Below are positions 14,720 to 46,103 of a stretch of 64,000 bases of DNA, in pieces. Where the stretch lies: the NCBI GenBank assembly GCA_003116975.1, contig BGKB01000136.1, positions 117,551 through 181,550 on the forward strand. Direction: 5' to 3'. The notes beneath the pieces are model-generated. The model was not told the DNA's origin and searched no databases. It saw only the letters and a list, made by a program, of their open reading frames with translations. Positions within the stretch are counted from its first letter, which is position 1; every line of letters begins with the position of its first letter. This DNA comes from Aurantiochytrium sp. KH105. Lineage: Eukaryota > Sar > Bigyra > Thraustochytrida > Thraustochytriidae. Both the position numbers and the translations under genes were made by a program.

Positions 14720-17440
14720 ATGGCAGAAGCCCGGGGCGCGGGCGCGGCGGCCGCAGAAGAGGCGGCCGCCGCGGTGGGCGTGGCCGCGGCCCTGCTGGCG
14801 GCCACGGCCGCCACGGCGCTGTGCTGGGGGCGGCGGCATTCGGCGAGCCGCGGCGCGATGGGGCGCGGCGGAAGCGAGAAACTCTGCGCGCGCGCGCCCC
14901 GGGAGCGCGAGCGCGAGCGGGAAGGCGAGCTCGCGAGAGGGCCGAAGAAGGTCTGCGAGGCGAGGGCACTCGCCGTGGTCCACGAGGAGGCTGCGACGGA
15001 AGCAGAACCCGAGGACGACCCCGCCGAAGCCGAAGGCCTCGAGCGCCGCGCCAACGTCAGGAATCACCTCGTCTGCTGGGGCGATGTGCCGTTTCGCACG
15101 AGCGGGAGCGCGCAAGGCGCGCAAGCAGCGAAGTTGCCCGGACCTACCTATGTATTGGACGCAGCATCAGCGCTAAACGCGCAGAGCATTCGTGACGTTG
15201 CTTGCTATTCGGGTCGCATGCTCGTGGCCTCCAAGGCCGGGGACGTGTACGAAAGCTCATCGCGAGGCACCGAGCTACAGCAGGTATTGGCCGTGGAGCG
15301 CGCGCTCTCTGGCGTTTGCATAGCCTCGGTAAGCTGTGGTCCGACGTTTTCAATGGCCGTGACGTCGTCCCCGCGAGGGGATGTCTACAGTTGGGGCAAA
15401 GGCCCTTGTGGCGAACTTGGTCATGGACCCGAGCGCTGCCGCGAGCCGTATCCCCGACGAATTGTGGGCGTTCTGCACGAGGTCATTGCTCAAACGGCGT
15501 GCGGGGCGCGCCACGTGCTTGCGAGAACACGATCAGGCGCCCTGTATTCGTGGGGCTTTGGTGGTAGCGGCCAGCTTGGTCACCGTCGAGCCTCTACACT
15601 GCGCGAGGATAATCCCTTGATACTTTATACCCCAAGTAAGGTGCAATCCATCCCCATGCGCAGCGTATGGTCTGGCGAAGGCGGGTCCACGAAAGGTCCT
15701 TTCAAGTCACGCTGTGTAGTCCATCTAGCGGCTCGCGCAGAGCACTCAGCCATCCTGGATAGCGAGGGGACGGTGTTGTGCTTTGGTTCAAGCCATCGCG
15801 GCCAGTGCGGCGTGGAAGCTGCAGACGGCCCAGTTTGGGTTCCACAGATCGTGCGCTTGTCAAATGTTGAGACTCGAGGCCCAGTGAACGACCGCGTCGT
15901 TCAAGTCGCATGCGGAGACAGCTTTACTGCTGCGCGCACAGAGAGCGGAGCAGTCTTTACTTGGGGAAGCAATGCTGAGGGGGAGCTCGGCAGAGATTCT
16001 GGACGTCTCTGGGACCCCCAACCTGGGCGCATAACGCTGCCTTCAAGTCCTTACCAAGGCGAGGCTCAGGCGCGCTGGCTTGCGCTTGGCGCGTCGCATG
16101 GCGCGGTGGTTCTGCGCGGCCAAAGCGGGAAAGTCGCATGCTGGGGCAGGCGCCCGGGCATGTGGACCTCTGAGCAAGCCAGCGGAAATGCGGATCTCAC
16201 CGATCGCGAATGCGTGGACGTATTCGCAAGCCGTAATGGGCGCATTGCGCCGGCCGGTGGTCTACGTATGATCGCATGTGGCGACACGTACTGCGTGTAT
16301 ATGGAAAACCTTCGCAACGACGTTAGTCTGGCTGATGCAGATGCACTATCCGAGGAGGAGCTTGGCTCGCAGCAACCCAAGCTCCTTCCGGGGGTGCTTG
16401 CCGAAACGCTTGCATTCGAACAAGCAGAGACGCTACGCCGCGGACGTTGGAAAGAGAAAGTCCTCAAGGATTGGCGTCGGCAACGCGAGAAAGCACGCAC
16501 TCGTGTCATGTGGATGGCCGGCATTCCCACGCCTCTGCGCGCCGTAGCATGGCCGCTGGCCGTGGGCAACACAATGCGCATCACTGAGCCGCTGTACTTT
16601 GCATTCAAGGCGAGTGCCAAGCAGCAGGTTGTTGTGCCGAGCGCAGCAGCGCAGAAGCCCAATGCATATAGCCCCGATGCGACTGAAACGGAACTTGACT
16701 CGGATTCCTTGAAGCGTCTGGATGTGCCACGCGAAACCTGCGAGCTCATTGATGCGGATCTTCCGCGCACCTTTCCGTCGTTGCGGATGTTTGCGCAGGA
16801 CGCCCCACTTGGCAAGCGACTACGGAGTGTTCTCAAGGCCTTTGCGCATTATAGACCCGACATTGGCTACGTCCAAGGAATGTCGTACCTTGCGGCTATA
16901 TTGTGTCTTAACACGGCGAACGAGTATCAGGCGTTTCAGACTCTGGCGAACCTGCTTCTCAAGGAACATCTCTTTGCATTTTATCGGCTCGACCAGACGC
17001 TGATTTTTGAGTATTATGAGATCTTTGAACGCGCGCTCGAGGCGCACGCGGAAACTACGGGTGTCGCGGCGCATCTGAGCGAGATTGGCGCCCATCCGCA
17101 CCTGTATTTGTACAATTGGCTTCAGACGCTGTTTTTCAAGGTGCTTCCACTTGATCTGGCGTGCCGTGCCATGGACTGTTTTCTTTGGGAAGGTACGGCC
17201 TTTTGCATGCGTGCTTCCGTGGCTATTGTTTACCTTTTCCGCGAGGTGCTCTTGGATGCTCCCTTTGAGACCTGTATTCGTCTTCTCTCGTGCTCGCCGG
17301 GCCAGGAAGCGCTCTGGGACTCTTTGATCGTCAAGCGCGCCGGACACCTTTTCACCATCGCAGACGACGTGCGTCTCTCCAAAGACATTCTCGCCTCTTT
17401 GCACGAGCTCAACGCGCGCGTTTTCTACCCAACTTGCTGA
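14720..17440 (+). CDS. RCC1-repeat / TBC-domain Rab GTPase-activating protein
   Basis: This 906-residue protein fuses two regulatory folds. Residues about 17-36 are an Ala/Val/Leu-rich hydrophobic stretch followed by basic residues, which could be a signal anchor. Residues about 115-520 carry RCC1 beta-propeller repeats, seen as VYSWGKGPCGELGHGPE, LYSWGFGGSGQLGHRRA, LCFGSSHRGQCG and VFTWGSNAEGELGRDSG. Residues about 590-900 are a TBC domain starting WMAGIPTPLRAVAWPLAVGN. Both catalytic fingers are present: Arg683 in IDADLPR (IxxDxxR) and Gln719 in GYVQGMSYLAA (YxQ). Therefore an active GAP for a Rab GTPase, acting in membrane traffic, is expected. RCC1 repeats often serve as exchange factors or as protein/lipid docking propellers, and here may target or regulate the TBC domain. 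The order RCC1 then TBC is uncommon to my knowledge. It may be a family expansion of protists. Confidence 0.88.
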   Translation: MAEARGAGAAAAEEAAAAVGVAAALLAATAATALCWGRRHSASRGAMGRGGSEKLCARAPREREREREGELARGPKKVCEARALAVVHEEAATEAEPEDDPAEAEGLERRANVRNHLVCWGDVPFRTSGSAQGAQAAKLPGPTYVLDAASALNAQSIRDVACYSGRMLVASKAGDVYESSSRGTELQQVLAVERALSGVCIASVSCGPTFSMAVTSSPRGDVYSWGKGPCGELGHGPERCREPYPRRIVGVLHEVIAQTACGARHVLARTRSGALYSWGFGGSGQLGHRRASTLREDNPLILYTPSKVQSIPMRSVWSGEGGSTKGPFKSRCVVHLAARAEHSAILDSEGTVLCFGSSHRGQCGVEAADGPVWVPQIVRLSNVETRGPVNDRVVQVACGDSFTAARTESGAVFTWGSNAEGELGRDSGRLWDPQPGRITLPSSPYQGEAQARWLALGASHGAVVLRGQSGKVACWGRRPGMWTSEQASGNADLTDRECVDVFASRNGRIAPAGGLRMIACGDTYCVYMENLRNDVSLADADALSEEELGSQQPKLLPGVLAETLAFEQAETLRRGRWKEKVLKDWRRQREKARTRVMWMAGIPTPLRAVAWPLAVGNTMRITEPLYFAFKASAKQQVVVPSAAAQKPNAYSPDATETELDSDSLKRLDVPRETCELIDADLPRTFPSLRMFAQDAPLGKRLRSVLKAFAHYRPDIGYVQGMSYLAAILCLNTANEYQAFQTLANLLLKEHLFAFYRLDQTLIFEYYEIFERALEAHAETTGVAAHLSEIGAHPHLYLYNWLQTLFFKVLPLDLACRAMDCFLWEGTAFCMRASVAIVYLFREVLLDAPFETCIRLLSCSPGQEALWDSLIVKRAGHLFTIADDVRLSKDILASLHELNARVFYPTC

Positions 17441-18985: not shown

Positions 18986-21622
18986 TCAACCGGCTGTGAG
19001 ATCAAGACCCTTGACCATGAATTTGCCTCCGCTTCCACCTGCGCTGCTGCCCCCGCGACCACCTCCACGGCCTCCGCGGCGTGCGCCTCGCCCGCGTCCC
19101 ATCATGCCGGGCATGACACTCATGAATTGCGCTGCCGTGGCTGCCGTCGCGCTGGTTGCAGACTTGCGTCTCGAACCCTCACCCACCGGGGGCAAACCTT
19201 GTGGACGGCGGAGCTGTTGCAAACCCTGCGCCGAACCCCATACAGACTGACGCTCCTTGTCCGTTTCTGCAATTTCATCCGCGATGGAGGAGGACGCCCC
19301 CGATGCCTCGGCGTACGCTTCGGGAAGAGGTGCGATCATCATCGAATACGAGCGTTGGGTCCAAGGACCATTTTCTTGCTTCACTTTGCCCACGGCGAAT
19401 TTCGGCGCCGGCTGCTCGTACAATTCATCAAAGGGAACACCAAGCGGCGCAAAGAATGCATTCGATTCGAGCTCTTGGGCACCGCTGGAGGAACAGAGAC
19501 GTTCTGCTGGGTCATGCACGAGCAGAGCGTCCACGAGAGCCTGTGCATCCTCGGGGAAACCATCGGGATACCTTTCAATCTCAAATGAAACGAGGCTCTT
19601 GACAACGTCTCGCTCATCCTCGACCCAGAGCGGGGGCTGGCCCGCCAACATCTGGTACACCACACAGCCATAAGCCCACCAGTCGATTGCTTCTGGGATC
19701 GTCAATGTGTCCGGCTCGGCAGCACTCGGCCCATCACGGCGCCGAAAAAGCTCGGGGGCAAGGTACGCGAGCGTGCCTTCGAGCGGCATGGTGGCGCTTG
19801 CAATTTGCTCAAGTGGACGCGTTGCACCAAAGTCGCCAAGCTTGACATGCCCATTGGCATGAATGAGGACGTTCTCTGGCTTAAGGTCGCCAAAAATGAG
19901 ACCAGCGTCATGCACGGCTCGCAGCGCCGAGGCGACTTCGCCTGCGACAAAACGCGTCGTGTCCGCGTCCAGCGTACCAATCGAGGCCAGCGCAGAATGT
20001 AAGTCACCAGAGGCTGCGTATTCCATGACGAGGTTGATATTTCCTGCGCTCTCGTACAGTCCCACGAGGCGCGTGCACAGCGGGTGCTGGATGGCGTCCA
20101 TCATTTCCGCTTCGCGAAGAGCAATATCGCGATGTCGCTCACTCATGCGCTTGATGGCAAACTCTGGCCATTCCCTCGAGGGTTTGTTCTTGATTGCTTG
20201 TTGCGCGTGAAAGACTTTCGAAAACGACCCGTGACCCAGCTCGCGTCCTACAATCATGTTCATAAAGGACACGTCGCGTTTGGCGGGGATGCTCGCCTTC
20301 TCCGTTGCTCGGACCTTGCGCCGCTGCCGACGACCGCTGCTTTGGGTATCCTCGTCTTCTACTTGCGCACTGCTCTCTTCATCCTCGCTCTCGTCCCCGT
20401 CCTCCTCTTTTGCGTTCTTGTCGTCATCTTCCTGCGTCTTGGAGGCCGCCTCGAGAAAACCTTCAATGTACGCCTCGACATCGGCCTCGGCGCCGAGCAT
20501 TTCAATGGCGATTTCAGTGACAAGGTCACGATCAAAGTCGTAGAGGCTAGATAGCACAAGCGGGGCAAGGCGAGCAACAGTGTGATTCCAGTGCGTTAGC
20601 GCATTTGCAAAGAGTGAGCGAGCCACGGAGCGCACCGCAGGTGCGCCCATGGCATAAAGGCTCTCGACCGTCTCTGGGTGCTTCCAATACATGAGCGCGC
20701 GCTCGCACACGGTACTGTTGTCGCTGGCTACAGCCTCGCCAAGCTTGCGCCCTACAAGCGGACCCGAGACCGGGGCAGTTGGTGCAACGGCGAGGTCGGC
20801 GCGCAACAAGGTTTCGAGTCCATGGAGGAGAAGAACCTCTTTGGGAGAATTGCCCTCCCAAGAGGTCGGCCAGGAGTCGGTCAAACCCTTGATGACGAGA
20901 TCGATGATGTTTACCTTGTCCTCCGGTGACGCCAAACGCGCAAAAGCCATGATACATGCCGTGAGAGGACGATGGATTTCGCCAAGTGCAGACTCGCTTG
21001 GGGAAACTTTGCCGGGAATGCCGTGCAGCGGAAGCACGATGTTTGTCAATAGACCAAGGTCTGCGTTACTGAGCGGCAAAACCATGCCTTGCACGATCGT
21101 CGTTACCGTGTGCAATAGGCCCGCCACTGCGGCGAGGCCTTCACGCGAATCCGGCGGATCACGCGCACACAATTTCAGAAATCCGCCCATGGCACCGCGA
21201 AGCTTTGTGCGGCCGATGGCCGACTCGTCGAGTGCGTAGCTCACGCAAATGGCATCATGCAAGGCGGCACTGTTGCGCACTTGCAAGGCTTCGAGCGCGA
21301 GGTTTCCGATGGTCCAGTCGAAGACGTCCCTGCGTGCGTCCTCGTTGAACTCTGGCGTTCCATGCAGAAGCGACAGGACGCAGGCGTCGAGGGCTGCGCA
21401 CGCTGCCGTGGCTCCTTCGCGCGTCGCGGCCGAGGGTTGCCACCACGTCTTGAGCGCAGCGCGCAGGTTCGCACGGAGCGTGACGTCTTCGTCCCACTCG
21501 AAGTCGCGGAGCTCGCCAGCGTCCGCAATCTCGCGCAGTGTTCCCGCGGCCGCAGCCGTCCCGGCGCCTCCTCTGGCAAGCGCGGCCAGCACCGGCGCAG
21601 CCTCGCGATCCTCGGCCGCCAT
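18986..21622 (-). CDS. PP2A B56-like regulatory subunit fused to PDK1-like AGC kinase
   Basis: The start MAAEDREAAP (21622) gives 878 residues; an in-frame Met 49 codons upstream adds a Phe-rich leader read from an A-rich tract. Residues about 40-395 are helical repeats resembling the PP2A B56 (PR61) subunit: LPLHGIPGK at 198-205, SPKEVLLLHGLETLL at 259-273, ERALMYWKHPE at 307-317 and THWNHTVARLAPL at 343-355, matching B56 blocks in the same order. An acidic-basic linker follows (397-450). Residues about 457-725 are a kinase: glycine loop GRELGHGSFSKV, Lys491 in FAIKRM, Glu504, catalytic loop FGDLKPEN (D579, K581, N584), DFG 597-599 and APE 622-624. It most resembles AGC/PDK1. HRD is changed to FGD, so it is a non-RD kinase, but all catalytic residues remain. 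The tail ends in an RGG-rich stretch (843-858). B56 recruits substrates to the PP2A core; joining this to a kinase suggests a kinase-phosphatase switch, by inference. Confidence 0.85.
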   Translation of the reverse strand: MAAEDREAAPVLAALARGGAGTAAAAGTLREIADAGELRDFEWDEDVTLRANLRAALKTWWQPSAATREGATAACAALDACVLSLLHGTPEFNEDARRDVFDWTIGNLALEALQVRNSAALHDAICVSYALDESAIGRTKLRGAMGGFLKLCARDPPDSREGLAAVAGLLHTVTTIVQGMVLPLSNADLGLLTNIVLPLHGIPGKVSPSESALGEIHRPLTACIMAFARLASPEDKVNIIDLVIKGLTDSWPTSWEGNSPKEVLLLHGLETLLRADLAVAPTAPVSGPLVGRKLGEAVASDNSTVCERALMYWKHPETVESLYAMGAPAVRSVARSLFANALTHWNHTVARLAPLVLSSLYDFDRDLVTEIAIEMLGAEADVEAYIEGFLEAASKTQEDDDKNAKEEDGDESEDEESSAQVEDEDTQSSGRRQRRKVRATEKASIPAKRDVSFMNMIVGRELGHGSFSKVFHAQQAIKNKPSREWPEFAIKRMSERHRDIALREAEMMDAIQHPLCTRLVGLYESAGNINLVMEYAASGDLHSALASIGTLDADTTRFVAGEVASALRAVHDAGLIFGDLKPENVLIHANGHVKLGDFGATRPLEQIASATMPLEGTLAYLAPELFRRRDGPSAAEPDTLTIPEAIDWWAYGCVVYQMLAGQPPLWVEDERDVVKSLVSFEIERYPDGFPEDAQALVDALLVHDPAERLCSSSGAQELESNAFFAPLGVPFDELYEQPAPKFAVGKVKQENGPWTQRSYSMMIAPLPEAYAEASGASSSIADEIAETDKERQSVWGSAQGLQQLRRPQGLPPVGEGSRRKSATSATAATAAQFMSVMPGMMGRGRGARRGGRGGGRGGSSAGGSGGKFMVKGLDLTAG

Positions 21623-22546
21623 CTTCCTGCGACTGTCTCGCTGCCGGCCGGAGGGGTTCGTTCGTACGTACGTTTGCAGTTTATTTATTCGCGGTCGAGA
21701 TCGACGCTGAGATCGATGGGATCCTTGCTCGGATCCTTGGGAAAAAAAAAAACAAAAAAACAGGATCATCGAGACGTGTCAAAGGCAAATCAAGGCTTCA
21801 CAGCAAGCTGGAGGAACCTCATGCATTTCCCCCCATTCACCTCGCGTATGCCTACTACAGAGATTGCCAAAAGCTTTATGCTGATGGTCTGCAATGGCGC
21901 AGAAAGAAGTTTGGTTCATAACATCAGAAGAAACGGCGCCCTTTGATGGTGAATGATCATGAACGAACCGAAAAGCACGTCATCTCGGTGGTACTGACCC
22001 TCGCTGTTCAACCTCGCGAGAACAAATGCTTGATTGACTTTACTCATGCTTGGTTCTTTGCCTGCGAGAACCTCTTGAAAGGAACTTTAGGCTCTTCTTG
22101 AAAGAAAGTATAAGTAGGCCTAAGTTACAAATTATTCTGGACAGGCTAGCCGCCAAGAACGATGATCATTCACTATTACATTCATTTGGCGTCGCGTATG
22201 TTCCCTTTCCTTCTTTGGCATCCGGTCGCGCCTCCTTAACAAGCTCACGAGGTCGCACGAGCGCGCCCCGGACGAGTGCCAAGAGATAGGGTGGCGCAGA
22301 TGTGAAGAATAAATTTACTTGCCACACATGAACGACTTCACCCGGTTCACTCACCCTCGAACAACGACAGCGACGAGGTACTGCCCCTGGGCCTGTGCTG
22401 CGCTCAGCCCCAATGGCACCCAGAACCAGCGACTTTTACCGCGCAGCGATGCGCCCCCCAACCCCCCAAAGAGACCATGACCGCCTTTCACCAGAGCCTG
22501 CCTGCATTCCCAGACCGAGCCACCATGGTCCAAGGTCGTCCGTCTT
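21623..22546. other. Intergenic region upstream of the B56-kinase gene
   Basis: It contains an A-rich tract at about 21740-21762 and TAGGCCTA at 22115-22122. The remaining sequence is A/T-richer on the left and GC-rich on the right. Short frames only; no gene called. Confidence 0.4.
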
Positions 22547-28853: not shown

Positions 28854-31800
28854 TCATTTCATCATCGCTTGCAGACAGGCCTCGTAATACGGCGAAGTCC
28901 GGCGTTCAAGCTCTTGCTGGTAAGAGACGACATTCTCGTGCATGACACTCGTGAGAAGCTCGGGCAACGGCTGCTGTCGTAGCACCGAAACAACATTCTG
29001 AAAGTGCGTCGGTGACAAGCCCGGAGCATGTTTATGCTGCCCCGACGCTGAAGATGAGGATGAAGACGACGTGGATGACCTTTCGAGTTCCATCGCCCGC
29101 GGATTTGCTTGATGTTGCTCGCGCGTCTCATCGCGGTCACCCTGCTCGCGAGTTCGGGCCTTCTTGGCAGGATGATGGCCCGCCACATCGGAAGCCTTTT
29201 CAGCTCCAGCAGGCTGTAGCTGTCGGTAAAAGAGCAGGTACACTGTATTCGACTCAGACTGTTCAATCTGGTTTGTCATCATCGCCCAATCGACGGGTAG
29301 CACCTTGGCATCGTTGAGCAGACGCCAAGGCGACGTTGGGCTGTCACGCTCATTGATGCTCTCGTCGGAAGCATCGCGCGTGTACGCAAAATAGTGGCCC
29401 GAGTTAGCATTTGCGCCAGTGTGGACGAGAACGGCGTACAGACCATACGGGACGTCCTTGATGTCCTCCGCTGCAGCGTCTGCAGTGGCGCCGCAGGGAA
29501 GGACCAGCACAGGGTCGAAACGGGTGCTCTGGAGGTGTTTAATGGCCCGCCCTCGCTCGTAGTCGAAGCCCATGCGTTTCACCGTCAGAATTAGGTGTTC
29601 GGGCGGGCTGGCCATCAGCGTCGATTGCTCGTGCATGCGCTTGACGCCTTCATTGTCGCACATGAGCATGTCAGATCCATCGAGCACCGCCGAGCTAAAG
29701 TAATGATGCACTAAACTCTGAATGCTATGGTCTGCGCGCCTGTCCGAGAAAAGTTTGCGCCCCCCACGCCACAACTCGCTCGGGTCCTTTGCAATGGCAA
29801 GCTGAACATATGTGTCTTGCACAAGCTGGACTATGCCAGCACTTTTCGCCCACGACCACGAAGCCAAAACTTCGCGGTGCGATGCATCCGTCCGCCCACG
29901 CCAAATCGTCGGGGCCCTCCGCAGGGCGTCTGTGCCGACGGCATCCGTCTTGGTCCACGATCCGCACATGATCCAGTTTGCGCGTGGAGCCTTTCGCCCT
30001 GCAGGACGCCTCCGCTTCGCCGCCTCACGGGTCCACGAAGGCAGCATGGACTGCCCCATTTCCAATCCTTCGTCTCCCTCGAGAGGTAAAAGCACCAACG
30101 AAAGCCCTTCGCTTGGGCTGGTGTTTCTCAGGGCAGAAACAGCACTAAAGGAGCCCGTGACAAGCGTTGCTTCCCGCATCGTCGACACGGCATAGAGGTG
30201 CAAATCGCCCCATGAGGTCTCGTACGTCCCGTTGAGCACATGAGGGTGAATTACTGCCGAGGAATCTCTTTCATCCGCGCAAAGAAAAATATTGTGCGTC
30301 CCCGTCATCGTGAGGTTCGCCTCCATTTGATTTGAGACCGTTCGATCAATGGCAGAAAATCCAGGAGGCACCTTCTCCGAAAGGTCCCGCCACTGCAGCG
30401 CAAGTCGATGAACTGCGCGTGTCGTCTGAGCGCTTGAGCACCTTCGAAAGGCCAAATACATGGCCACACCGCCTGTTCCATGGTTCAAGTCGGCATTTGC
30501 GCCTGAAGGTGTCTGTGTCACAGGTTGAAAGCCGTTTGGAAGCTCTTCCAGGTCGGCAAGGAAAAGAGCGACTTTGGCGATCGGGTCCTCACCCGGGTCC
30601 GCGCTATGGCGCGCAGCAAGCAATATGGACATCGTGCTATCGCCATCGCGAAGATTGCAACGTTGGGCGTTCTCAAAGCTTGAAATGACTTCAAAGCCCG
30701 GAGGGATGGCCTCGCCATCTCGGAGGACGCACAGGTCCACAATCGGGCCTTGCGCGCCCTGGGCCGTTGAGCTCACGCGCTTTCCATCTACGTTGATCTG
30801 GGCAGCGGCCATCGAAGTCGAGCTATTGGCTGAATTGATTGCAAAGCCGGAAAGGCCCCAATTTCCACCTCCGCGGTCCTGAAAGCTAAACTCAACGAAA
30901 CTGACATTGTTGTTTTCCTGGCATGCGTAGCCAAGAAAGGACCAGCGGAGGGACTCGGGCCGGAAGAATGCTGTGCCGTGTAAGATTCCTGCTTGACCTT
31001 CAGGGCCCAGCCTCGAAAAGCTACCATGAAAGAACCCGGCCTGTACAGGTTCATTGAGACCTCGTAGCTGCAGGGTCTTGCCGCGACCAATGGCAAGACC
31101 GGGCGGAGGGTCCATGTTTTGGTTCGAGCTTGCGGACCCGGAGCCCGACGAGCCCGATCCATTCCTTGCTTTGTTTGACGAGATTTGCGGCAACCAATTC
31201 CGATCAAAGAGAGCACGAATGGGGTCAGCTTTAACACGAGCGCCTCCTGGCGCCTCTTTCACTTGCGCTGCCAGAGCGATCTTGTCCGATGCGCTTGGCA
31301 AGTCACCAGCCTCCGGGGTTGTTGCTGTTACCGTCGCCACCGAGGAGGATGGCGACGAGGAAGACGATGATGATAATAATGAAGAAGAGGAAGAGGAAGA
31401 GGCGCTTGTGCCGTCGCGTTCATTACCTCTATGATCCGTCGTGAGGCGGCGCTCGTAGAGGTCTAGGACTTCGTTGAAGCGATACGGAGGCACCACGCGA
31501 GGGGCGCGAAAGATGGAGACTTGTGTGATAGGAGTCCCCTCACCACGTCTCTTCATTAGCGTGCGTCCGCCCCGGAAAACGAATGTACCGCATGACTCAA
31601 AACCATTCTCTCTATATTGAGCCTCTTGCGCGCGCTCAACAAGTACGAGGTCTGTGATTGGCTTGACAAAAACGCGTGAATCGCTAAACCAAAGAAAGAC
31701 ATCACTCGACGCGCTTTGCGAAGGATCCAAGGCAAGGTTCAGAGACGTGTCCAGTACCTGGTACTCTGCTGCCTGGTTCAAAAGCGGCGCCGTCGAGACC

Positions 31801-34800
31801 AATACATCTGTCACGGGCATGCCTCGCATGTAGCAAAGCTTGACAGGTGTCGTCGCAGGCCCAGCGCCAGAGGTCGAACCCGAAGCCGCACTTTGCGCAA
31901 CTGGAACCGTTGCTCCTGCCCCTGCACTTGATGATGCGCTTGTCGCACCTGCGTTGACTGGCACTCCAGTCACTACGGCTCGAGCCTGCCAACTTGGGTT
32001 CAGGTCAGTGGAGATGACGCGCGCGTCCTCCGGGGGCGAAGCAATATTTTCCGCGCCAACAAGAACGTTGAGGTCCGTGATGGGGGATCCGCGTGCGCCG
32101 CACTGGAAAAACAGATACACCTGATCTGGTTTGTTTCCGTTTGATGCGGGCGAAGGCGCAGGAGCACCAGAAGCTGCTCTCTCGGCAGCCTCTGCTGGGG
32201 TCGGCGCCGGAGGTTCGGGCCCAGGGTTCAGATTGACGCCTACGCTTCTGTACCCATTCGGGGTCCCCGGAACCGGGTCTGTACCTGGGACGACCCGAAC
32301 GAGCAGCTCGGTAACGGGCTCGGCGTCCGGATCGCGACGAACGCATAGAAAAACGCACGGGTGATCGTCCTTGTCTGCGTTAACATTGGCGCGAATAAGC
32401 TCAAAGCCGTCGGGAACTCGAACTTCGTGAAGTCTCGACTTGGTTGCGCACGTTACCGCAGTAATGTCTGTGATGGGCATGAACTGACCGGGCAAGGTCA
32501 CAGCAAGGCCGCGCCCAGCCTCATCCATAACTTTGGCCGTCCCACACGAAGCGCATCGACGAATCTGGGCAACGCTGTACCCGAAAAGTTCATCGAGCAG
32601 AGCACCTTGGGGGAAAGCGTCTTCGAGCTGAGCAAAGACATAGTTATGAAAGTCAGAGACATCCATTTGCTCGCCCGTACGCCAGTCCTGAGAGAGGGCC
32701 TTTTGCAGCCCTCTGGAAGCAAATACAGGTGTTTGTGATACGAGAAGTCGTGCGAACAGCTCGCGAAGAGCGTGAATAAGAGCATTGTCCATCATTGTTC
32801 CCTCGGGGGGGAACAACAGCGCACGTCGCAGCGCACTCGTGGCAAAAAGCGCCTGCAGAAGCGAGTTCTGATAACACACGTTGTAAAGTCCCTGCTCCAT
32901 GTTACGGAGCCCCGACGCGAAAGGCGAAAAGGGAAAGTTCCTTACATCGTCGGTGACCTTGATTTGAGCCTCGCGCGCATCGCGCAGCGCCATTTCCGTC
33001 AGCGAGGTTACAATCGTTGTTTCCCGCAGACGTTGGACGAGTCCGCGGCACTGTTCCGCATCTGCCTCGAGCTTGGCGTTCCAATTCCCGGAAGCAGCGT
33101 CGCCAAACGCCCAGGTTCCGAATAAGCGCTCTCCTGCATCGTCGAGCCGCAAGTCCACATAGTGTGGCCCATTTCGACCCACGCCTCGCGCAAGCCAAGC
33201 TCCCGCGATACGCCAAGTCACCGACGTTGGGTCGACATGCGCGAGAAGCTGGAAGCGGCCCTGGTTGTCTCCATACTCTCCATCCAATTCGTAAACGATT
33301 CGATCCTCGTCCCCAGCCGCTGCGACAACATCCAGAATACCCAATGTGGTGTCCCAGTTTCCAATACTGTCCAACATCGGGAGCCCCGAGTCGTCTCCGC
33401 TTCCCTCGTCGCTGAGAGAGTAGGCCATTCGCACCATTTCCGCTTGGAGAGCAGCCTCTAGATTTTCGCAGCGCGCCTTGATCGCGTCGCGAAGTTTCCC
33501 GTCTTCGATTTTAGTCGACGCAGCACTTTGCCCCGGCGCTGAAGCTGCTGCGGCCGTCGCCGTCGCCGTTGTCGTTGCCGATCCACCTGCCCCGGCTTCA
33601 GCACCTGCGGCTCCTGAGGTGGTGCCTGGGCCAGAGGCTGGGACGCTGGGACGTGGCGAACTGCATGCGGAGCACGCCACATTTGAGGCCGAGTTGCGCA
33701 ATGTGCATATGGAGCAATTCCAAGCTTCATCAACCCCGCTCGCTGCGCTGGGACCCGGGTCACTTGGCGCTGCGCTTGCTGGCCGAGGCTGTTGACACAT
33801 TTCGCAGACTGAGTTAGAAGCCGCATTGCGAAATGTGCATTGCAAGCACGCCCATTGCGAGGATGCACCACTCGAACCAGAGCTCGGACCTGGTGACGCG
33901 ATGGGAACCAATGCAGTGGATGTTGAACCAGAATTGGGGTTGGAACTATTACATGCCTCACACATCGTGGCGCTCGGAGCATTTAAGCACGTGCAAACTG
34001 GGCATTGCCATTGCTGTGGGGTCTCGCTTGCGGCCGCGGAACTTGCCGCATTCGAAAGGTCGATGAGCGGCGAGTAGTCCCCTGCGGCCTGGGCAGTCCC
34101 GCTACCAGAGGCCGATGACTCGTTCGTCCCGCCTGGCGCATCCGCAGCGGCGAGCAAGGAAGATATTCCGGAAATCTCCCACGGAAGGCGGCGGCTCTCG
34201 GCGCCGGCACTTTCTTTTGCCCGTGCTTGGATCCTGAGCACGGCGAGAGGCTGCGTATTGGTCATGACGCCAAGCAAGACGCCGTCCAAGATTGTCATTC
34301 GGAGAAGGGAGGGGAGATCGGCGGCCAGGGTGGCGAGTACATTGTTGTTGACCAGGATTGAAAGCTCATGAGTGTTCGAGTACGCAATGCCCACACGAAT
34401 TTCAATTCCATCCCTGGACTTGCCTACTTCTGCACTTGGAGTGAACCCCACGCAGGGAAGCTGCACAAGGGTTTGAATATGGGGCTGGGCCACTTGCACG
34501 GAAATTCTGTACTGAAAACCATGCCCGGAGACCGTGTCAACCGAGAGGAACAGTCGCACCTGGCGATCGAAAGCTCCGTGCCGCTGGTACGTGTACTTGA
34601 GAACATCCCAGTACGAACTGGCATGCAAGACAAGACAGGCCTGGGTTCCTGGTTTGATGCACATGGTGAACTCAGCTTCGGCACCGTCCGCGATGGGGAG
34701 GCGACGTTGTGTCCAAAGTGAGGCTCCAGGACTAAGGCTGACTCCAGCTTGTTGTCCGCCGCGAGTATCCAGAACAGGACCAATGGAAAAGAGCTCGCCT

Positions 34801-36683
34801 TGAGAATGCAAGCCGTACAAAGGCGACGTCGGTGGCAAAGAAGTGTCGGTCTCGCGGCTTGATACTTCGGCTGTTGCGAGAACGGACGATGCTTGAGACG
34901 ACGAGCGTGTCACCACGACAAGGTGGCGATCATGACCAGACACGTCGTACAGGGCAGTTGGGCCAACGCCCTGGAGCGGGCAAAAAGCGAGGAGTGAGCC
35001 AACCTCTTCGGCGTTTACGGCGCAAGAAAATCCACGCTGATATTCGCGCGAGATGGTTGCTACATCAATGGCACGTTTCCAGACCTTGAAAAAGCCGTAC
35101 AAAAGGTGCGAAGAGCACAGCTCGGGAGCCTCTAGCGCTTGTGAGCCGAGATCAAAATCTCTGCAGTTGGTCATGATGTGGTCCCCATTAACAGCAAAAC
35201 CGACACCATCGGAGGTCTTTCCGAAGCAAACGATTTGCAGCCATTTCGCGTCAGGGAGACTCCCTTGAGCACTAACAACCACGCTCTGCGACTTTGTTTC
35301 CACGATGGCGAGCTCAAGGCCGGCCGGAGACTCTTGCATGCGGAGACTGAGGCGACCGATGCGCATAATTTCGATCCACTCGGACGCGGGGCGATCATTC
35401 TTTCGGTAAACCCATGTCTGTACGGCCCAACCATCTCCTCCAGAGAGCTCTCCTTTGCTCAGTTGCAGGGTCTGGCCTGCGGTAAGGGCAACGGTTCGTA
35501 GCATTCGCTCAGCGCCCGTGTCGTTTATGACTTCGACGTCGAGGCTCGCCTGAATGAGACGCGGGACACCGAGCATGATCAAGCGGTCCGCGCCCCGTGC
35601 TCTCCAGCCACGAAGTTCGCGCGCCGACCAGTGGTTGATCATGAGCGGGTAAGGGTTCTTTTGCGAAGCATTCGCACGGTCGCGAACCGAGGCGTAGACG
35701 GCAGCGTAATTGCGTCCACTCGTGCGGGCCACGGTCCCTTTGACAAGCAAGGGGCCATCAGCATCTTGCTCGAGGAGACAACCCTCCACGCTTGTACCAA
35801 AAGCGCAATTTTGAGCATGCAGTGTAAAGGCAGGGCTGTCGCCTTGGCCAGGGCTAGGCTCGAGAACCCAGCGACCCTCTGGCCAGGAAAAGTACGGGTA
35901 AGAAAAGGCAAAGTGGTCGTTGCCGGGCCTCCCGGGGAGCAGAGAGGGCCGAGCGGCACCGTTATGCACCCAGGAATTGCTGCGCATGGCTGCTTCGCGC
36001 GCCGCCGCATCGCCAAACGGAGACTCGAGCGTGCGCGGTGCCGCACATGCATGAGCGAGTCCCCAGTGCGCGCCAGCCAGAAGTTCTGCGACTTCTGGGG
36101 AGGCGTATTCAATTGCAGACCCCAGTTCAAGCATGACTTCCGGAGACGAAACGGACCCCAACAGCAGGAGTTCGAGTATTTGGCGTCTTTCCAGCCTTAG
36201 AGGCCTGTTTCCGTCCTCGAGTACAACGCGAGCAAGGGGAACAGCCAGAGATGCGAGCAAAGTCGGCTTGCGCGCAATCACGAGCCCCTGGAGGGTCCCG
36301 AGGACAAAGACATCCATATCGTGGCGAAGGGCCTTGACGAGGATGACAGCTGCGCCGTGCCCGGTAAAGCCAGGCTGGCACGCCGTTGCAAGACAGAGAA
36401 CATGCATGGGCTCTGTGTTTTGCAAAGAGGCTACGACCTCTGCCACAATGGGCGCCAGATCGCCGCCGTCGAGCTCCTCACGGTTGATATCTTGCGCAGC
36501 CCCGCCGAAGATATCCGTAGCAATGGAAGCCAGCTTCTGAGCTTTCTCGATGGCATCGCGGCGGGCTTCCTTCTGGCCTGCTCTGGGTCCAGGCAGCTCA
36601 GGTCGCGCGGGCGGCGGCGGCGGCGGCGGCGTCGTTGTCGCCGCCGCCGCGCCGAGCGCGCCTGCCCTCAGCCAGGGTGTCAT
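28854..36683 (-). CDS. Giant ubiquitin-specific protease with RanBP2 fingers and MABP-like repeats
   Basis: This 2,609-residue deubiquitinase has, in order: a helical N-terminal region (about 40-235); beta-rich LamG/concanavalin-like segments (about 420-560 and 665-835); three RanBP2-type zinc fingers (about 892-1005; WQCPVC, WACLQC and WNCSIC, each with a matching downstream CxxC); and a USP catalytic domain. The Cys box GLYNVCYQNSLLQALF has Cys1270. The His box SGHYFAYTRD has His2430, followed by WRLLNDAKVLPV with the third-residue candidate. Between them a single CASC pair and a lone MCDNE suggest the fingers' zinc site is incomplete. About 900 residues (roughly 1400-2290) are inserted in the catalytic domain and contain recurrent PITDL.V / PPGF..I / DLN patterns of MABP beta-prism type. 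USPs cleave ubiquitin from proteins; RanBP2 fingers commonly bind ubiquitin or RNA, and MABP domains in MVB12 bind membranes. Endosomal or membrane-linked deubiquitination is inferred. Intronless. Confidence 0.88.
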   Translation of the reverse strand: MTPWLRAGALGAAAATTTPPPPPPPARPELPGPRAGQKEARRDAIEKAQKLASIATDIFGGAAQDINREELDGGDLAPIVAEVVASLQNTEPMHVLCLATACQPGFTGHGAAVILVKALRHDMDVFVLGTLQGLVIARKPTLLASLAVPLARVVLEDGNRPLRLERRQILELLLLGSVSSPEVMLELGSAIEYASPEVAELLAGAHWGLAHACAAPRTLESPFGDAAAREAAMRSNSWVHNGAARPSLLPGRPGNDHFAFSYPYFSWPEGRWVLEPSPGQGDSPAFTLHAQNCAFGTSVEGCLLEQDADGPLLVKGTVARTSGRNYAAVYASVRDRANASQKNPYPLMINHWSARELRGWRARGADRLIMLGVPRLIQASLDVEVINDTGAERMLRTVALTAGQTLQLSKGELSGGDGWAVQTWVYRKNDRPASEWIEIMRIGRLSLRMQESPAGLELAIVETKSQSVVVSAQGSLPDAKWLQIVCFGKTSDGVGFAVNGDHIMTNCRDFDLGSQALEAPELCSSHLLYGFFKVWKRAIDVATISREYQRGFSCAVNAEEVGSLLAFCPLQGVGPTALYDVSGHDRHLVVVTRSSSQASSVLATAEVSSRETDTSLPPTSPLYGLHSQGELFSIGPVLDTRGGQQAGVSLSPGASLWTQRRLPIADGAEAEFTMCIKPGTQACLVLHASSYWDVLKYTYQRHGAFDRQVRLFLSVDTVSGHGFQYRISVQVAQPHIQTLVQLPCVGFTPSAEVGKSRDGIEIRVGIAYSNTHELSILVNNNVLATLAADLPSLLRMTILDGVLLGVMTNTQPLAVLRIQARAKESAGAESRRLPWEISGISSLLAAADAPGGTNESSASGSGTAQAAGDYSPLIDLSNAASSAAASETPQQWQCPVCTCLNAPSATMCEACNSSNPNSGSTSTALVPIASPGPSSGSSGASSQWACLQCTFRNAASNSVCEMCQQPRPASAAPSDPGPSAASGVDEAWNCSICTLRNSASNVACSACSSPRPSVPASGPGTTSGAAGAEAGAGGSATTTATATAAAASAPGQSAASTKIEDGKLRDAIKARCENLEAALQAEMVRMAYSLSDEGSGDDSGLPMLDSIGNWDTTLGILDVVAAAGDEDRIVYELDGEYGDNQGRFQLLAHVDPTSVTWRIAGAWLARGVGRNGPHYVDLRLDDAGERLFGTWAFGDAASGNWNAKLEADAEQCRGLVQRLRETTIVTSLTEMALRDAREAQIKVTDDVRNFPFSPFASGLRNMEQGLYNVCYQNSLLQALFATSALRRALLFPPEGTMMDNALIHALRELFARLLVSQTPVFASRGLQKALSQDWRTGEQMDVSDFHNYVFAQLEDAFPQGALLDELFGYSVAQIRRCASCGTAKVMDEAGRGLAVTLPGQFMPITDITAVTCATKSRLHEVRVPDGFELIRANVNADKDDHPCVFLCVRRDPDAEPVTELLVRVVPGTDPVPGTPNGYRSVGVNLNPGPEPPAPTPAEAAERAASGAPAPSPASNGNKPDQVYLFFQCGARGSPITDLNVLVGAENIASPPEDARVISTDLNPSWQARAVVTGVPVNAGATSASSSAGAGATVPVAQSAASGSTSGAGPATTPVKLCYMRGMPVTDVLVSTAPLLNQAAEYQVLDTSLNLALDPSQSASSDVFLWFSDSRVFVKPITDLVLVERAQEAQYRENGFESCGTFVFRGGRTLMKRRGEGTPITQVSIFRAPRVVPPYRFNEVLDLYERRLTTDHRGNERDGTSASSSSSSSLLSSSSSSSPSSSVATVTATTPEAGDLPSASDKIALAAQVKEAPGGARVKADPIRALFDRNWLPQISSNKARNGSGSSGSGSASSNQNMDPPPGLAIGRGKTLQLRGLNEPVQAGFFHGSFSRLGPEGQAGILHGTAFFRPESLRWSFLGYACQENNNVSFVEFSFQDRGGGNWGLSGFAINSANSSTSMAAAQINVDGKRVSSTAQGAQGPIVDLCVLRDGEAIPPGFEVISSFENAQRCNLRDGDSTMSILLAARHSADPGEDPIAKVALFLADLEELPNGFQPVTQTPSGANADLNHGTGGVAMYLAFRRCSSAQTTRAVHRLALQWRDLSEKVPPGFSAIDRTVSNQMEANLTMTGTHNIFLCADERDSSAVIHPHVLNGTYETSWGDLHLYAVSTMREATLVTGSFSAVSALRNTSPSEGLSLVLLPLEGDEGLEMGQSMLPSWTREAAKRRRPAGRKAPRANWIMCGSWTKTDAVGTDALRRAPTIWRGRTDASHREVLASWSWAKSAGIVQLVQDTYVQLAIAKDPSELWRGGRKLFSDRRADHSIQSLVHHYFSSAVLDGSDMLMCDNEGVKRMHEQSTLMASPPEHLILTVKRMGFDYERGRAIKHLQSTRFDPVLVLPCGATADAAAEDIKDVPYGLYAVLVHTGANANSGHYFAYTRDASDESINERDSPTSPWRLLNDAKVLPVDWAMMTNQIEQSESNTVYLLFYRQLQPAGAEKASDVAGHHPAKKARTREQGDRDETREQHQANPRAMELERSSTSSSSSSSASGQHKHAPGLSPTHFQNVVSVLRQQPLPELLTSVMHENVVSYQQELERRTSPYYEACLQAMMK

Positions 36684-40847: not shown

Positions 40848-43800
40848 TTATGAAGCGGAAGGAGCCAGAGAGGGAATCGACTCATTTTTCGACTTTGTTT
40901 CTTCTTGTTTTCCCTCTGTCTTCGTGACATTTGCGATGAGAGTTGGAAACTCAGACGTGGGCGTCGCCTCCTTTCTCACCGCAGGGGCTTCCGTTGATGC
41001 AGACCCGGAAGTGTCATTGTCGTTCGCCACCTTCAGTTCGGCCGGCGTCGTGTTGACAGCAGATTCATCGCTCGCGACTGCCGCAGCTTTGGACTCGTGC
41101 ACAGCCGATTCACTCGATCTGGAGTCGGACTTTTCCTCCCCAGGTGCGACGACGCTGTCGTTCACCGCTTTCTCTTCAGATGGTGCTGCAGCACTCTCGC
41201 TAGAGTCTGCCGCAGCGTTCGACTCGTGCGCAGCCAGTTCACTCGATCTGGAGTCGGACTTTTCTTCCCCAAGTGCGACGGCGCTGTCGTTCGCCACCTT
41301 TGCCTCGGTCGGCACCGCAGCACTCTCGCTGGAGACTATCACAGCATTCGATTCGTGCGCAGTCGATTCCGTCGATCTGGATTCGACCTTTTCTATGCCG
41401 GGTACAACAGCGCTTACACTCGCCACCTTTGACTCGGCCGGCACCGCAGCACTCTCGCTGGATGCTGTTGCAGTTTTCGATTCGTTCGCAGCCGATTCCG
41501 TCGATCTAAATTCGACCTTTTCGTCACCGGGTACACCAACGCTTTCACTCGCCACCTTTGCCTCGGCCGGCACCGCAGCACTCTCGCTGGAGACTGTCGC
41601 GGCAATTGACTCGTGCGCAGCCGGTACTAATTGTCTGGACTCGACCTTTTCTACGCCGAGCGCGACAACAGTTTCGTTCTGCCCTTTCTCTTCGCGCGGC
41701 GCCGCCTTGATAGCATCGCTATCGCCAGAGACCGTCGCAGCCTTTGATCCGTGTACAGCTAAGTCCGCCGAATCGGGTTCGGCCTTTTCTTCACCTCGCG
41801 TAAGATTTGCAGCAGCTGATCCACTTGATGCCTTGCTTGCGTCTGACTCTGGCGCACCATCACCCACCGCTTCAGCGTTCACTGTTGTCGGCGCGGCGCC
41901 GCCTGCTTCACTGTCTGAGCGCGCGGCAGCACTCGTCGAAGTGGGCACGGCTCCTTTGGAATTGTCTGGCAGATCCTTTGCCGAGAGCGTCTTGGTCTGC
42001 TGCTGCTCCGAGTCTGCCCCAGGGGCTGCGGCTTGCTTAACCGACGTGAAGGAGGAGGAGGAAGAGGAGGAGGTGGCGGTACTGTCGCTCACCCCATACT
42101 GAGCCCTTGTGTCGGGGGCACTTGCCTCCTTGACAATTTCCATTGGCTGGGTCTCTACATCAGCCTTCGCACAGGAATCCTGCGCAAGTTCAACACGAGG
42201 AGCTTGAGCCGGCTCGGTTGCCTCTGTCTTAACCTTGGAGACCGCGGCTGGTTGTGGAAACGGGGAAACGTCAGAAATCTCACGTTTGAGGGTTGTTGAT
42301 GAAGACGACGGAGAGTGTTCCCCACCCCGTGGACCGCGGGGCTGTCTCGTTTTGAGCAGCTGCTCAAGAGGTACATTGGCCAATTTGGCGTGCACAAGCG
42401 CCTCCACGGGAATGACAAGAAGGTACTCCACTTCGACGGCAAGATCCGGGGCGAACATGCGCGCACCCGAATCCAGAGAAACTTCGGCAATCGGTGGAGT
42501 GCCCTCTCGAACTAGGTCCACCGTGCCCCAACCAAATTGGGTTTCAACGCGCATCGATCTAGCCGCCGCGACAGCCACGCAATACGTCCGAATTCCTGTG
42601 CGACGGAGCACAACGCCAAGACCATCTGGAGTCATGACCTGCATACCAACAACGACGTGCTCTTCGTCTCGCTCGGCAGGGTCCTGCTCCATGGAGACAC
42701 CAATGTCTTCGTCGAACGCGGCGTCAACCCAAGCGCCGTAGCGATTGCTCGACCACGACGTCGGATTCAGATAACTGATTTGGCGGTCGTCCAAAGCGTC
42801 AGCCTGACGTGAAATGTCCTCGAAACTGATGAGGCCGCCGTAGAGGCGCTTCATCTCCTTGAAGAACATAAACATCGCCTCTCGTTGCACAAGGCGATAG
42901 CGATCACGGTCGCGCGCCGCCGCAGATCGTACTGTTGCCGTGGCGCTAAGGCTGCTCTGCGTGCTATTGGCCCGACGTAAGAGGCCGGGACCGGCGGCGG
43001 TCGCGGCGGCGCCAGCATTGGATGGCGATAAGTGGCCCTCGTCAACGAGGACTTTGCGGCGCACCTTGACTTCCACACGACCCAAAGGCTCACCGCCATC
43101 GGCAGAGACTTGGTTCACGAGGTCGGCGATCGTCCCAATGACCGCCTGAATGGAAATTTTGGGAAGCCCACTCGACTCTGCGGCGCCACTCGCATACTGC
43201 TGATAATCCTTCATGAGCGCCTTGGGGCCAAATTTGCTCAACTCCCTCTTCGTGGCCTCAACGTAGCGGTATACGCGCTGGCCTGACCGGTCGTCCGCGC
43301 GGTCAGAGAACGAGTACAATGGCATAATGGAGGCAAATTGGCCAGGACCCGGGTGCCGAGGCAGCCAGTCCTCGGCGCGGCCTGCCTGTTTAGGAAAGAC
43401 GACATGAACTGCATCTGTGCGCGCGTCCACAATCTCGACAGCGAACCATTTGCGTGAACGCCGGTGATAGGCGTCAATGCGATGACCGCTTTGCAAATCA
43501 TCGACGCTGCCAATCCCGTAGCCCCACTTGAGAGACGACTCTCCCGTGCTGGGTTCTTCAGGAACTGTGCACGAGGCAAAGTGCGGGTCCACCCGCTTGA
43601 GCATTGAGCAGGTAAAGTTTTCCGGAAAGTCCGCAGCCGAGTACCCGGCGGGGAGCTTGCGCCATTTCTCGCAATCCTTGGCCTCGCATCGGATCCAAAC
43701 GTGTTGGTTCACCGTCGGGGGCGGCGGCGGCGAGAACATTTGACCTTCCTTGCCTGGAAACCGTGATGCGGAACGCCGCGTCGCCTTGAGCGCTGTCAAG

Positions 43801-46072
43801 AGGCGCTGGAACACGTCGTCTCCCTCTGCACTGGCAGGTTTGTCGTGTTCCTCGAGCACCTGCTTCTTGAAGTAAACGTCGTCGAGACGGCCCTCGAATC
43901 CAGACGCTACGCCGTCAAAGTTGCGATTGTCAAAGAGCGCCGCGTCGAGCACTGGCGACCCAAACAATCGCGGGGGCGGCAGCGGCGGTGGCCAGGCGTC
44001 TGCCTGAAGGTCGGTATGCACGTGCGGCGCCGGTGCGAACATGCGCTGCGTTTCTTTATCCCAGTCCTGATACCGCTTCTTGTTGTCACCAAGCTGCTTC
44101 ATCAGTCGGTTGCGGACGTGGGAGCCGTACTTTGCAGCCTCAATCGGGGTGTACGCGCTCTCGACCTCGGGAAGGACAGTCGTGCCCATGAGCTGCTCAA
44201 CCAACATATTCTCCTCCTTTTGGTCAAGCCAGCCGAGCAGCGGGGCAACCACACTGCTCTCGTGATGCAGCGAATGAGCTGCGGTCGGGTCGTAGGCGTT
44301 GTCGGGGCCGTAAAAGTTTACGGGCGGCGCCTCCGTGACCTGAAACCAGTTTTCGGTGAGGCTGTAGAAAGTGAGCAAGTCGACAAGCTTTTGGTGCGCG
44401 TCATCCATTTTGCCATCTTTCCAGACCTGGCCGTCCTCTGATTGAGCCACGCCGGGTACCTTGAGAACGAGATCCCGGAGGCGACGAATGCCATCGCGGG
44501 CCTCTTCAATCGACCCGACACAGTACTTGCCGAGCTCGCGGATCTCCCGCATCGCCTTGGGCACATAGGTCATTTTTTCGGCGCGGTCCGCCACCGGGGG
44601 CTTGCCTTTGTGGATCGCACGCGTCTTGATGTTCCACCAGTACCGAGATTTGATGCGCGGATCGCTAGCGGCCTGCCACACATTAATGTGATAAACGCAA
44701 GTCCTTTCCAGCAAGCGAAGCACCCTCTGCATTACACTGTTGGTGCGGTCATTCCAAAGTGCATTCATCACATCCTCGTCCGTCAAGGGCCGAAAGGGAC
44801 TCTGGTGCGTCTTGGTGCTTAATGCGACATGTGGTTCAGGATAATCTGGGTTGTCGGTAAGCTGTGGTCGCCGCAAGACATTTGACCCGATAGGAATACG
44901 GTTGAGGACGCTACCATCATCGTAGAGGATATGAACGCTAGGTCCACGTAAAAGAGCGTCAAAGTACTTTTTGCTGGCTGGGTCCGCACTCAGCGTCGTT
45001 TCTCCTGCTTCCTTTTCCGATGCATTTGCAGCATCTGTTTCCATCTTGCTGCCGTTCTCATTTGGAACGAGTGGAATTTCCGAAGCGGCCTCAGAGTCTG
45101 CAGCTGATACGCTCTGCGACGCCGCGGGCGTAGCCGCCTCGCTGGGATCGTTTGAGGGGTTTGTGCTGCCAGAATCTTTCGTGGGCTGGTTTGCGTCCGT
45201 CCCAGACAACGAAGAGAGATTTTTTTCGTATGCAGAACCCTGCTCTTTGCTCAGCGGGTTGGGGTGCACGTGGAGAATTGTGCCCGAATACCATCCGGGA
45301 TAATCCTCGGCATCATCTCCGCACCACCGTGCCTCACAACGGTCGCCAACCCACCACACACGTTCTACGAGTTTGGCCGTGGTCTCGTTGACGAGGTCGC
45401 GTACCTTTTGGTTGTGTTGCGACACGCGCTCGCGCCCCTTGGACGGCGACATTGCGCCCCAGTTCTCTTGCCGGTTTGCCGCGGACGAAGAGACTGCCAC
45501 GGCAGCTGCGGCTGCCGCAGCGCGTTCCGGAAAGCTTTCCGGGCCCGTCGACGCCTGAAATTGCGTCCACATGGGTCGCACATTTTCCATGGCGCCTTCA
45601 AAGCCCAGACGGATCCGGGTGTCCATTCGATGCCGAAGCTTGCTCAGAGCAATGATGAGGTTGCACACACGCTGACGCGCAATGCCCTTGGCCTCGCGTT
45701 TTACCGAGGTCCAAAGCTCGCGAGCCGAGTCCGGGTCGAGATCTCGCTTGCGCTGCGTCGCGGGCGGAATGTTTTGGGTGCCTCTAGAAGCAGCTTTGGT
45801 CTCGCTCGCTGCGCCAGCCCGTTGCTGCGCGGCCTTGCCCCCCTTTGCGGCCTTTGCCCCCTTTGCGGCCTTGCCCCCCTTTGCGGTCTTGCGCGCCGAA
45901 GTCTTTTTGGCTGCAGTCTTTGCTGGGACTGCCTTTTTCGAGGATGCCCTTTTCGAGGTCTGTTGGGCGGTCTGTTTGCCAGCTGTTTTCCCCGCAGAGC
46001 CATTGCTGTTGGTGGCTTTTGTTGCCGTCGTGCTTTTGGTGCTTCTGTTGGTTTTCGTGCTTTTGACGGTTG

Positions 46073-46103
<31 letters not shown>

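Follow-up and report, generated by a model that had tools for sequence, protein, structure and literature searches.

The window analysed here, a stretch of 64,000 nt of contig BGKB01000136.1 from the marine protist Aurantiochytrium sp. KH105 (positions 117,551 to 181,550), contains on its minus strand a gene whose predicted 878-residue product joins a domain like the PP2A B56 subunit, which chooses substrates for that phosphatase, to an AGC kinase domain. The open reading frame (ORF) spans 18986-21769 with a TGA stop codon at 18986; the start was placed at 21622 because a protein from Hondaea fermentalgiana also has 878 residues and the open frame of a second genomic copy lacks the ATG lying further upstream. 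The first-pass annotation had proposed that a B56-like subunit and an AGC kinase occur in one polypeptide, and this was borne out by the single open frame, by both Pfam matches and by the conservation of the order in nine proteins. Judged from its sequence, the product belongs to a conserved family of eukaryotic proteins that combine a B56-type PP2A regulatory-subunit fold, a PDK1-related AGC kinase predicted to be catalytically complete, and a disordered tail.

The contig carrying the window (C136) belongs to a genome of 76,034,492 bases, and a second copy of the fusion gene, 98% identical and open over 909 codons, is located on contig C120. The coding sequence is 2637 bases long in both copies, and the 55 synonymous and 18 nonsynonymous changes between them preserve the reading frame. 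The ratio of nonsynonymous to synonymous divergence (dN/dS) was 0.10 overall, 0.02 for the kinase and 0.26 for the Pfam B56 part, and was below 0.3 in all segments; the value of 0.17 for residues 399-445 rests on 7 changes only. It is highly improbable that adjacent genes were read as one or that the fusion is an assembly or pseudogene effect, since no stop codon separates the domains, the second copy is open, dN/dS is low throughout and the same domain order occurs in eight further database proteins. Two separate genes are ruled out by the unbroken frame, the second copy and the relatives with this order. The synonymous divergence between the C136 and C120 copies (about 0.09) is high for alleles, and the C120 protein appeared by eye to be closer to the Hondaea protein than the window protein is. 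Most other genome matches, with the fusion as query and in the B56 searches, likewise look paired, and the organism is perhaps a hybrid or a very heterozygous diploid.

A single-sequence database search yielded eight other fusion proteins (P0002-P0009, the window protein being P0001). The Hondaea protein (P0002), annotated as "Protein kinase, putative", is 98% identical to the window protein, and seven further proteins with B56 and kinase domains are 29-62% identical to it. B56 lies N-terminal to the kinase, with both domains over the Pfam cut-offs, in 8/8 relatives. A profile search from the nine fusions found no new fusion and missed P0009, and a search with the B56 part of P0004 returned P0004 alone; about 8000 candidates were scored in each database search, and the observed distribution across lineages is a lower bound. 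Titles and abstracts of the open-access literature on such fusions or on the kinases of this lineage gave no description of a B56-kinase fusion. The fusion protein is real, conserved and, as far as this literature extends, undescribed.

The four B56 blocks named at the outset (LPLHG, SPKEVLLLHGLETLL, ERALMYWK and THWNHTV) were all present in the ORF, and the PF01603 cut-off was exceeded by all nine fusions. Residues 1-445 alone gave 14 distinct matches to PDB sequences (E<=10; best, 1.2e-14), every one of which contains PP2A B56; one of them, 7ouf_F, is a chimera carrying B56. The N-terminus was modelled and searched separately, since kinases fill the Foldseek list of the full model. The predicted B56 fold (residues ~1-384) extends beyond the Pfam match, and the kinase domain begins near residue 456. 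An unrelated HEAT family, raised in the first-pass annotation for residues 40-395, was ruled out by the PDB sequence matches and the predicted-fold searches, which returned a B56 fold instead. By profile and predicted fold, the domain belongs to the B56 family.

Seven B56 gene pairs were found in the genome, the fusion included, and three of them are canonical B56 genes with two copies each. A fourth B56-type gene (L015/L016; open frame of 936/940 aa, ~284 bits) is extended by a long stretch at the N-terminus and ends in a long region that is acidic and of low complexity, and two more B56-like gene pairs (L019-L022; ~56 and 37-40 bits) are very divergent. No fused kinase was seen in the ORFs read for the other six pairs, the frames of L019-L022 extending beyond the stretch examined. 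At a locus on contig C226, where a match to the fusion begins inside the B56 half, the ORF (L031) reads as an ordinary AGC kinase with no B56-like sequence recognisable by eye.

The PF00069 match covers residues 458-711 (153.9 bits; cut-off, 31.7). With the full model, PDK1 or PDK1 chimeras occupied 49 of the best 50 Foldseek rows. The best PDB sequence match was PDK1, just a few bits above S6K, and the 40 PDB sequences at E<=1e-33 were named PDK1 (one merely "PkB-like"), S6K or RSK; sequence and predicted fold place the kinase in the AGC group. An unrooted tree was built from 8 fusion kinases, 2 PDK1 and 12 other kinases of the same genome, with five of 18 own-genome kinases excluded: two as second copies (L032 and L035) and three as apparently outside the AGC group (L038, L043 and L044). 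The fusions formed one group (100/99), fusions plus PDK1 were separated from the others at 97/95, and PDK1 was placed between. No PH domain was detected in the window protein by Pfam at E<=10, and the genome encodes a separate PDK1 (L023/L024) with a PH domain, its best PH_3 match (98.5 bits). This gene and the tree rule out the fusion as the PDK1 of the organism. The first-pass description of the kinase as PDK1-like thus stands for kinship in sequence, fold and tree, but the protein is not PDK1 itself.

Six catalytic residues are invariant in 9/9 fusions: Lys491 (VAIK), Glu504 (alpha-C), Asp579 (catalytic), Asn584, Asp597 (DFG) and Glu624 (APE). The HRD Arg is lost in all nine, with Gly in eight and Ser in P0003, and the activation-loop GT-3 position is without Ser/Thr in every one; the window protein reads MPLEGT there, without the T-loop Ser (S241 in PDK1). 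The P0002 states for both loops were taken from a separate kinase comparison outside the tree. Among the control kinases of the tree, Arg was present in 14/14 and Ser/Thr in 13/14 (L042 being the exception); with five kinases from outside the tree, the counts were 18/19 and 17/19, L043 lacking both. Of the other database hits (112, most with bacterial names), 105 had a recognised catalytic loop, and 4 of these lacked the Arg. Kinases without the HxD Arg are termed non-RD in the available portion of PMC8463890. The intact catalytic residues, together with the absence of both the HRD Arg and the T-loop Ser/Thr, point to a kinase that is predicted to be active without reliance on activation-loop phosphorylation.

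Table 1. Features of the fusion gene in the window (positions in the 64,000-nt stretch; residues of the 878-aa product)
Feature	Residues	Position	Strand	Basis or remark
Complete coding sequence: B56-like domain, kinase, tail	878 aa	18986..21622	-	Open frame; 98% identical in-frame second copy; 878-aa Hondaea P0002
B56-fold helical-repeat domain	1-384	20471..21622	-	Predicted fold
PF01603 B56 match	163-376	20495..21136	-	E 1.4e-20, 74.1 bits, cut-off 25
Charged disordered linker without stop codon	409-454	20261..20398	-	Predicted local distance difference test (pLDDT) score <50 for 407-454
PDK1-like protein kinase domain	456-712	19487..20257	-	PF00069 E 7e-45; Foldseek; tree
Catalytic loop FGDLKPEN, Gly in place of HRD Arg		19871..19894	-	Arg replaced in 9/9 fusions
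Activation loop to APE, Pro at GT-3 position instead of Ser/Thr		19751..19795	-	
Tail motif WTQRSYSMMIAPLPEAY (W-x2-R-x2-S-x4-P-x-P-x2-Y)	754-770	19313..19363	-	Conserved
I-x-E tail element ADEIAETD	781-788	19259..19282	-	LxxIxE-like; same place in 7/9 fusions
LPPVGE, second LxxIxE-type tail sequence (P0001-P0003)	810-815	19178..19195	-	Assumed pattern
C-terminal GLDLTAG		18989..19009	-	Common to 6/9 fusions as G[LV]DL[ST]AG

A uracil-DNA glycosylase gene (PF03167; 17849-18841, plus strand) is convergent with the fusion gene. Also on the plus strand of the window, a 906-aa ORF (14720-17440) joins RCC1-like repeats to a Rab-GAP TBC domain. On the minus strand lie a 2609-aa ORF (28854-36683) that combines a zinc ribbon of the RanBP type with a ubiquitin C-terminal hydrolase domain, and a 3117-aa ORF (40848-50201) in which a SET domain lies in the first half and is followed by a CW zinc finger.

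The tail motif W-x2-R-x2-S-x4-P-x-P-x2-Y was present in 9/9 fusions, in 0/112 other search hits and in 0/18,000 shuffled proteins. Arg at position -3 of the Ser, as in this motif, is a usual AGC-kinase consensus. An x-x-x-I-x-E-x-[D/E/H] element begins 8-10 residues past the motif in 7/9 tails, an arrangement expected by chance in 0-0.4% of cases per shuffled tail; the nine fusions are related, so its recurrence amounts to about three lineages. Strict LxxIxE-type matches at the conserved place are MDTIPE, MDAIPE and MDAIAE in P0006-P0008 and WETIRE in P0004. The G[LV]DL[ST]AG endings were found in P0001-P0005 and P0009.

The LxxIxE pocket of B56gamma comprises H187, R188, R197, R201, K240 and H243 (PMC4930772 and PMC7108865, in the portions available to us); a change of H187 or R197 abolished BubR1 binding, and a change of K240 or H243 weakened it (available text of PMC4930772). 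An acidic patch includes E276, E310, D313 and E316 (PMC7108865, in part), and the PP2A-C contact loop contains Glu198 in B56delta (PMC10291244, in part). The unfused L009, L012 and L014 of the same genome retain 7/7 pocket residues checked (H187, R188, Y190, R197, R201, K240 and H243). Among the fusions, P0006-P0008 retain H187, R188, Y190, R197, H243 and an acidic loop; Leu takes the place of R201 and K240, and 3/4 acidic-patch positions are lost. A strong tail motif and a better-preserved pocket coincide in P0006-P0008, which would fit docking of the tail on the B56 domain of the protein itself, a pattern that rests on three lineages. Arg occupies the positions of R197 and R201 in the window protein; the alignment has a gap at H187/R188, an uncertain result because the N-terminal half is hard to align.

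Our favoured reading, adopted tentatively and with a little less than even confidence, is that the fusion comprises a B56-type scaffold, an always-primed kinase, and a tail serving as both substrate and docking peptide, with PP2A binding putative. The kinase would be primed at all times, with no need for activation-loop phosphorylation, and the B56-type domain would serve for docking and as a scaffold, perhaps still attached to the PP2A A/C core. Ser760 of the basic tail motif may be phosphorylated, perhaps by the fusion kinase itself, and the adjoining I-x-E/LxxIxE-like element may dock on a B56 pocket, either its own or that of canonical PP2A-B56. Kinase and phosphatase would thereby be held together, acting on the same tail or on the same clients. 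A more specific form, which we consider unlikely, is a self-contained writer-eraser, in which the primed non-RD PDK1-like kinase would mark its own WxxRxxS tail, the LxxIxE-like element would dock the tail on a PP2A-B56 pocket (own or canonical), PP2A would reset the mark, and the B56 domain and kinase would share clients. The built-in switch suggested in the first-pass annotation is possible and has gained a concrete tail element; PP2A binding and catalysis are putative.

Several observations weigh against the favoured reading. In the window protein, K240 is replaced by Ser and H243 by Asp, and the acidic-patch positions are Arg, Thr, Arg and Leu, so that the patch is lost. At the PP2A-C contact loop, the alignment gives E-D-V with the Trp kept, within an N-terminal stretch that is not reliably alignable. 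In view of the changed pocket, the acidic patch and this loop, neither PP2A binding nor LxxIxE binding can be presumed. The altered pocket that the first-pass annotation had suspected was supported in part, at K240, H243 and the patch, but not at R197 and R201, which align with Arg, and H187/R188 lie in the uncertain stretch. P0006-P0008 are placed closer to the unfused B56 in the B56 tree, and the fused B56 domains may or may not share one origin (57/54). Some non-RD kinases are still activated via loop phosphorylation, according to the available part of PMC8463890. The changes in the pocket and patch bear on another explanation, to which we assign an appreciable but lower probability, namely that PP2A binding has been lost from the B56-type domain, which would only provide the attached kinase with a helical-repeat scaffold or regulator, with no phosphatase side. 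The N-terminal half of the window protein has diverged (18/124 aligned positions identical to B56delta, versus 56/190 in the C-terminal half), the acidic patch and a portion of the LxxIxE pocket are lost, and the three canonical B56 genes are left for ordinary PP2A work.

The tail itself adds further points against the favoured reading. The conserved element of the window protein (ADEIAE) lacks the first hydrophobic residue, and no strict LxxIxE-type match occurs in the P0005 and P0009 tails. Shuffling produces a strict match by chance in 2-15% of tails; such matches are found as well within folded regions of all nine fusions or of close relatives, and elsewhere in most of the fusions. The LxxIxE pattern used to score the tail matches is an assumed one. 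The same evidence bears on a rather improbable alternative, in which the tail would recruit canonical PP2A-B56 in trans, in the manner of BubR1, and the fused B56 domain would compete or act as a mimic or decoy. At least one strict LxxIxE-type sequence by the assumed pattern is present in 7/9 fusion tails, the canonical L009, L012 and L014 retain every pocket residue checked, and BubR1 with B56gamma provides a precedent (PMC4930772, in part). However, the conserved element of the window protein reads A-x-x-I-x-E, its strict match (LPPVGE) lying further on, and the lack of a strict match in two tails and the chance frequency count against recruitment in trans as well.

Ordinarily, PP2A regulatory subunits and kinases are distinct proteins, and recruitment determines the balance between them; in a conserved fusion, the two would be tied covalently, which would show that B56 folds are reusable as kinase modules. 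The family would also represent new non-RD AGC kinases with testable rules and offer a protist test bed for kinase-phosphatase coupling.

Compared with PP2A B56 (B', PPP2R5; PF01603), the fusion protein has an attached kinase and a strongly diverged N-terminal half, and in the window protein K240, H243 and the acidic patch are changed. It resembles PDK1 (3-phosphoinositide-dependent kinase 1, an AGC kinase), which gave the best PDB sequence and fold matches and is its nearest tree group, but differs in lacking the PH domain, the HRD Arg and the T-loop Ser. BubR1 is a (pseudo)kinase of another kinase family and is not known to carry a B56 domain itself. It recruits PP2A-B56 through an LxxIxE motif (PMC4930772, in the part available), and the fusion likewise pairs a kinase-type domain with an LxxIxE-type sequence. 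As in the PIKK family, helical repeats precede the kinase within a single polypeptide of the fusion. The kinase and repeats of the PIKKs are unrelated to those of the fusion, and PIKKs are not known to contain B56. In these HEAT-repeat kinases, the helical repeats preceding the kinase in the same chain are used for docking, as described in the available portion of PMC8786283.
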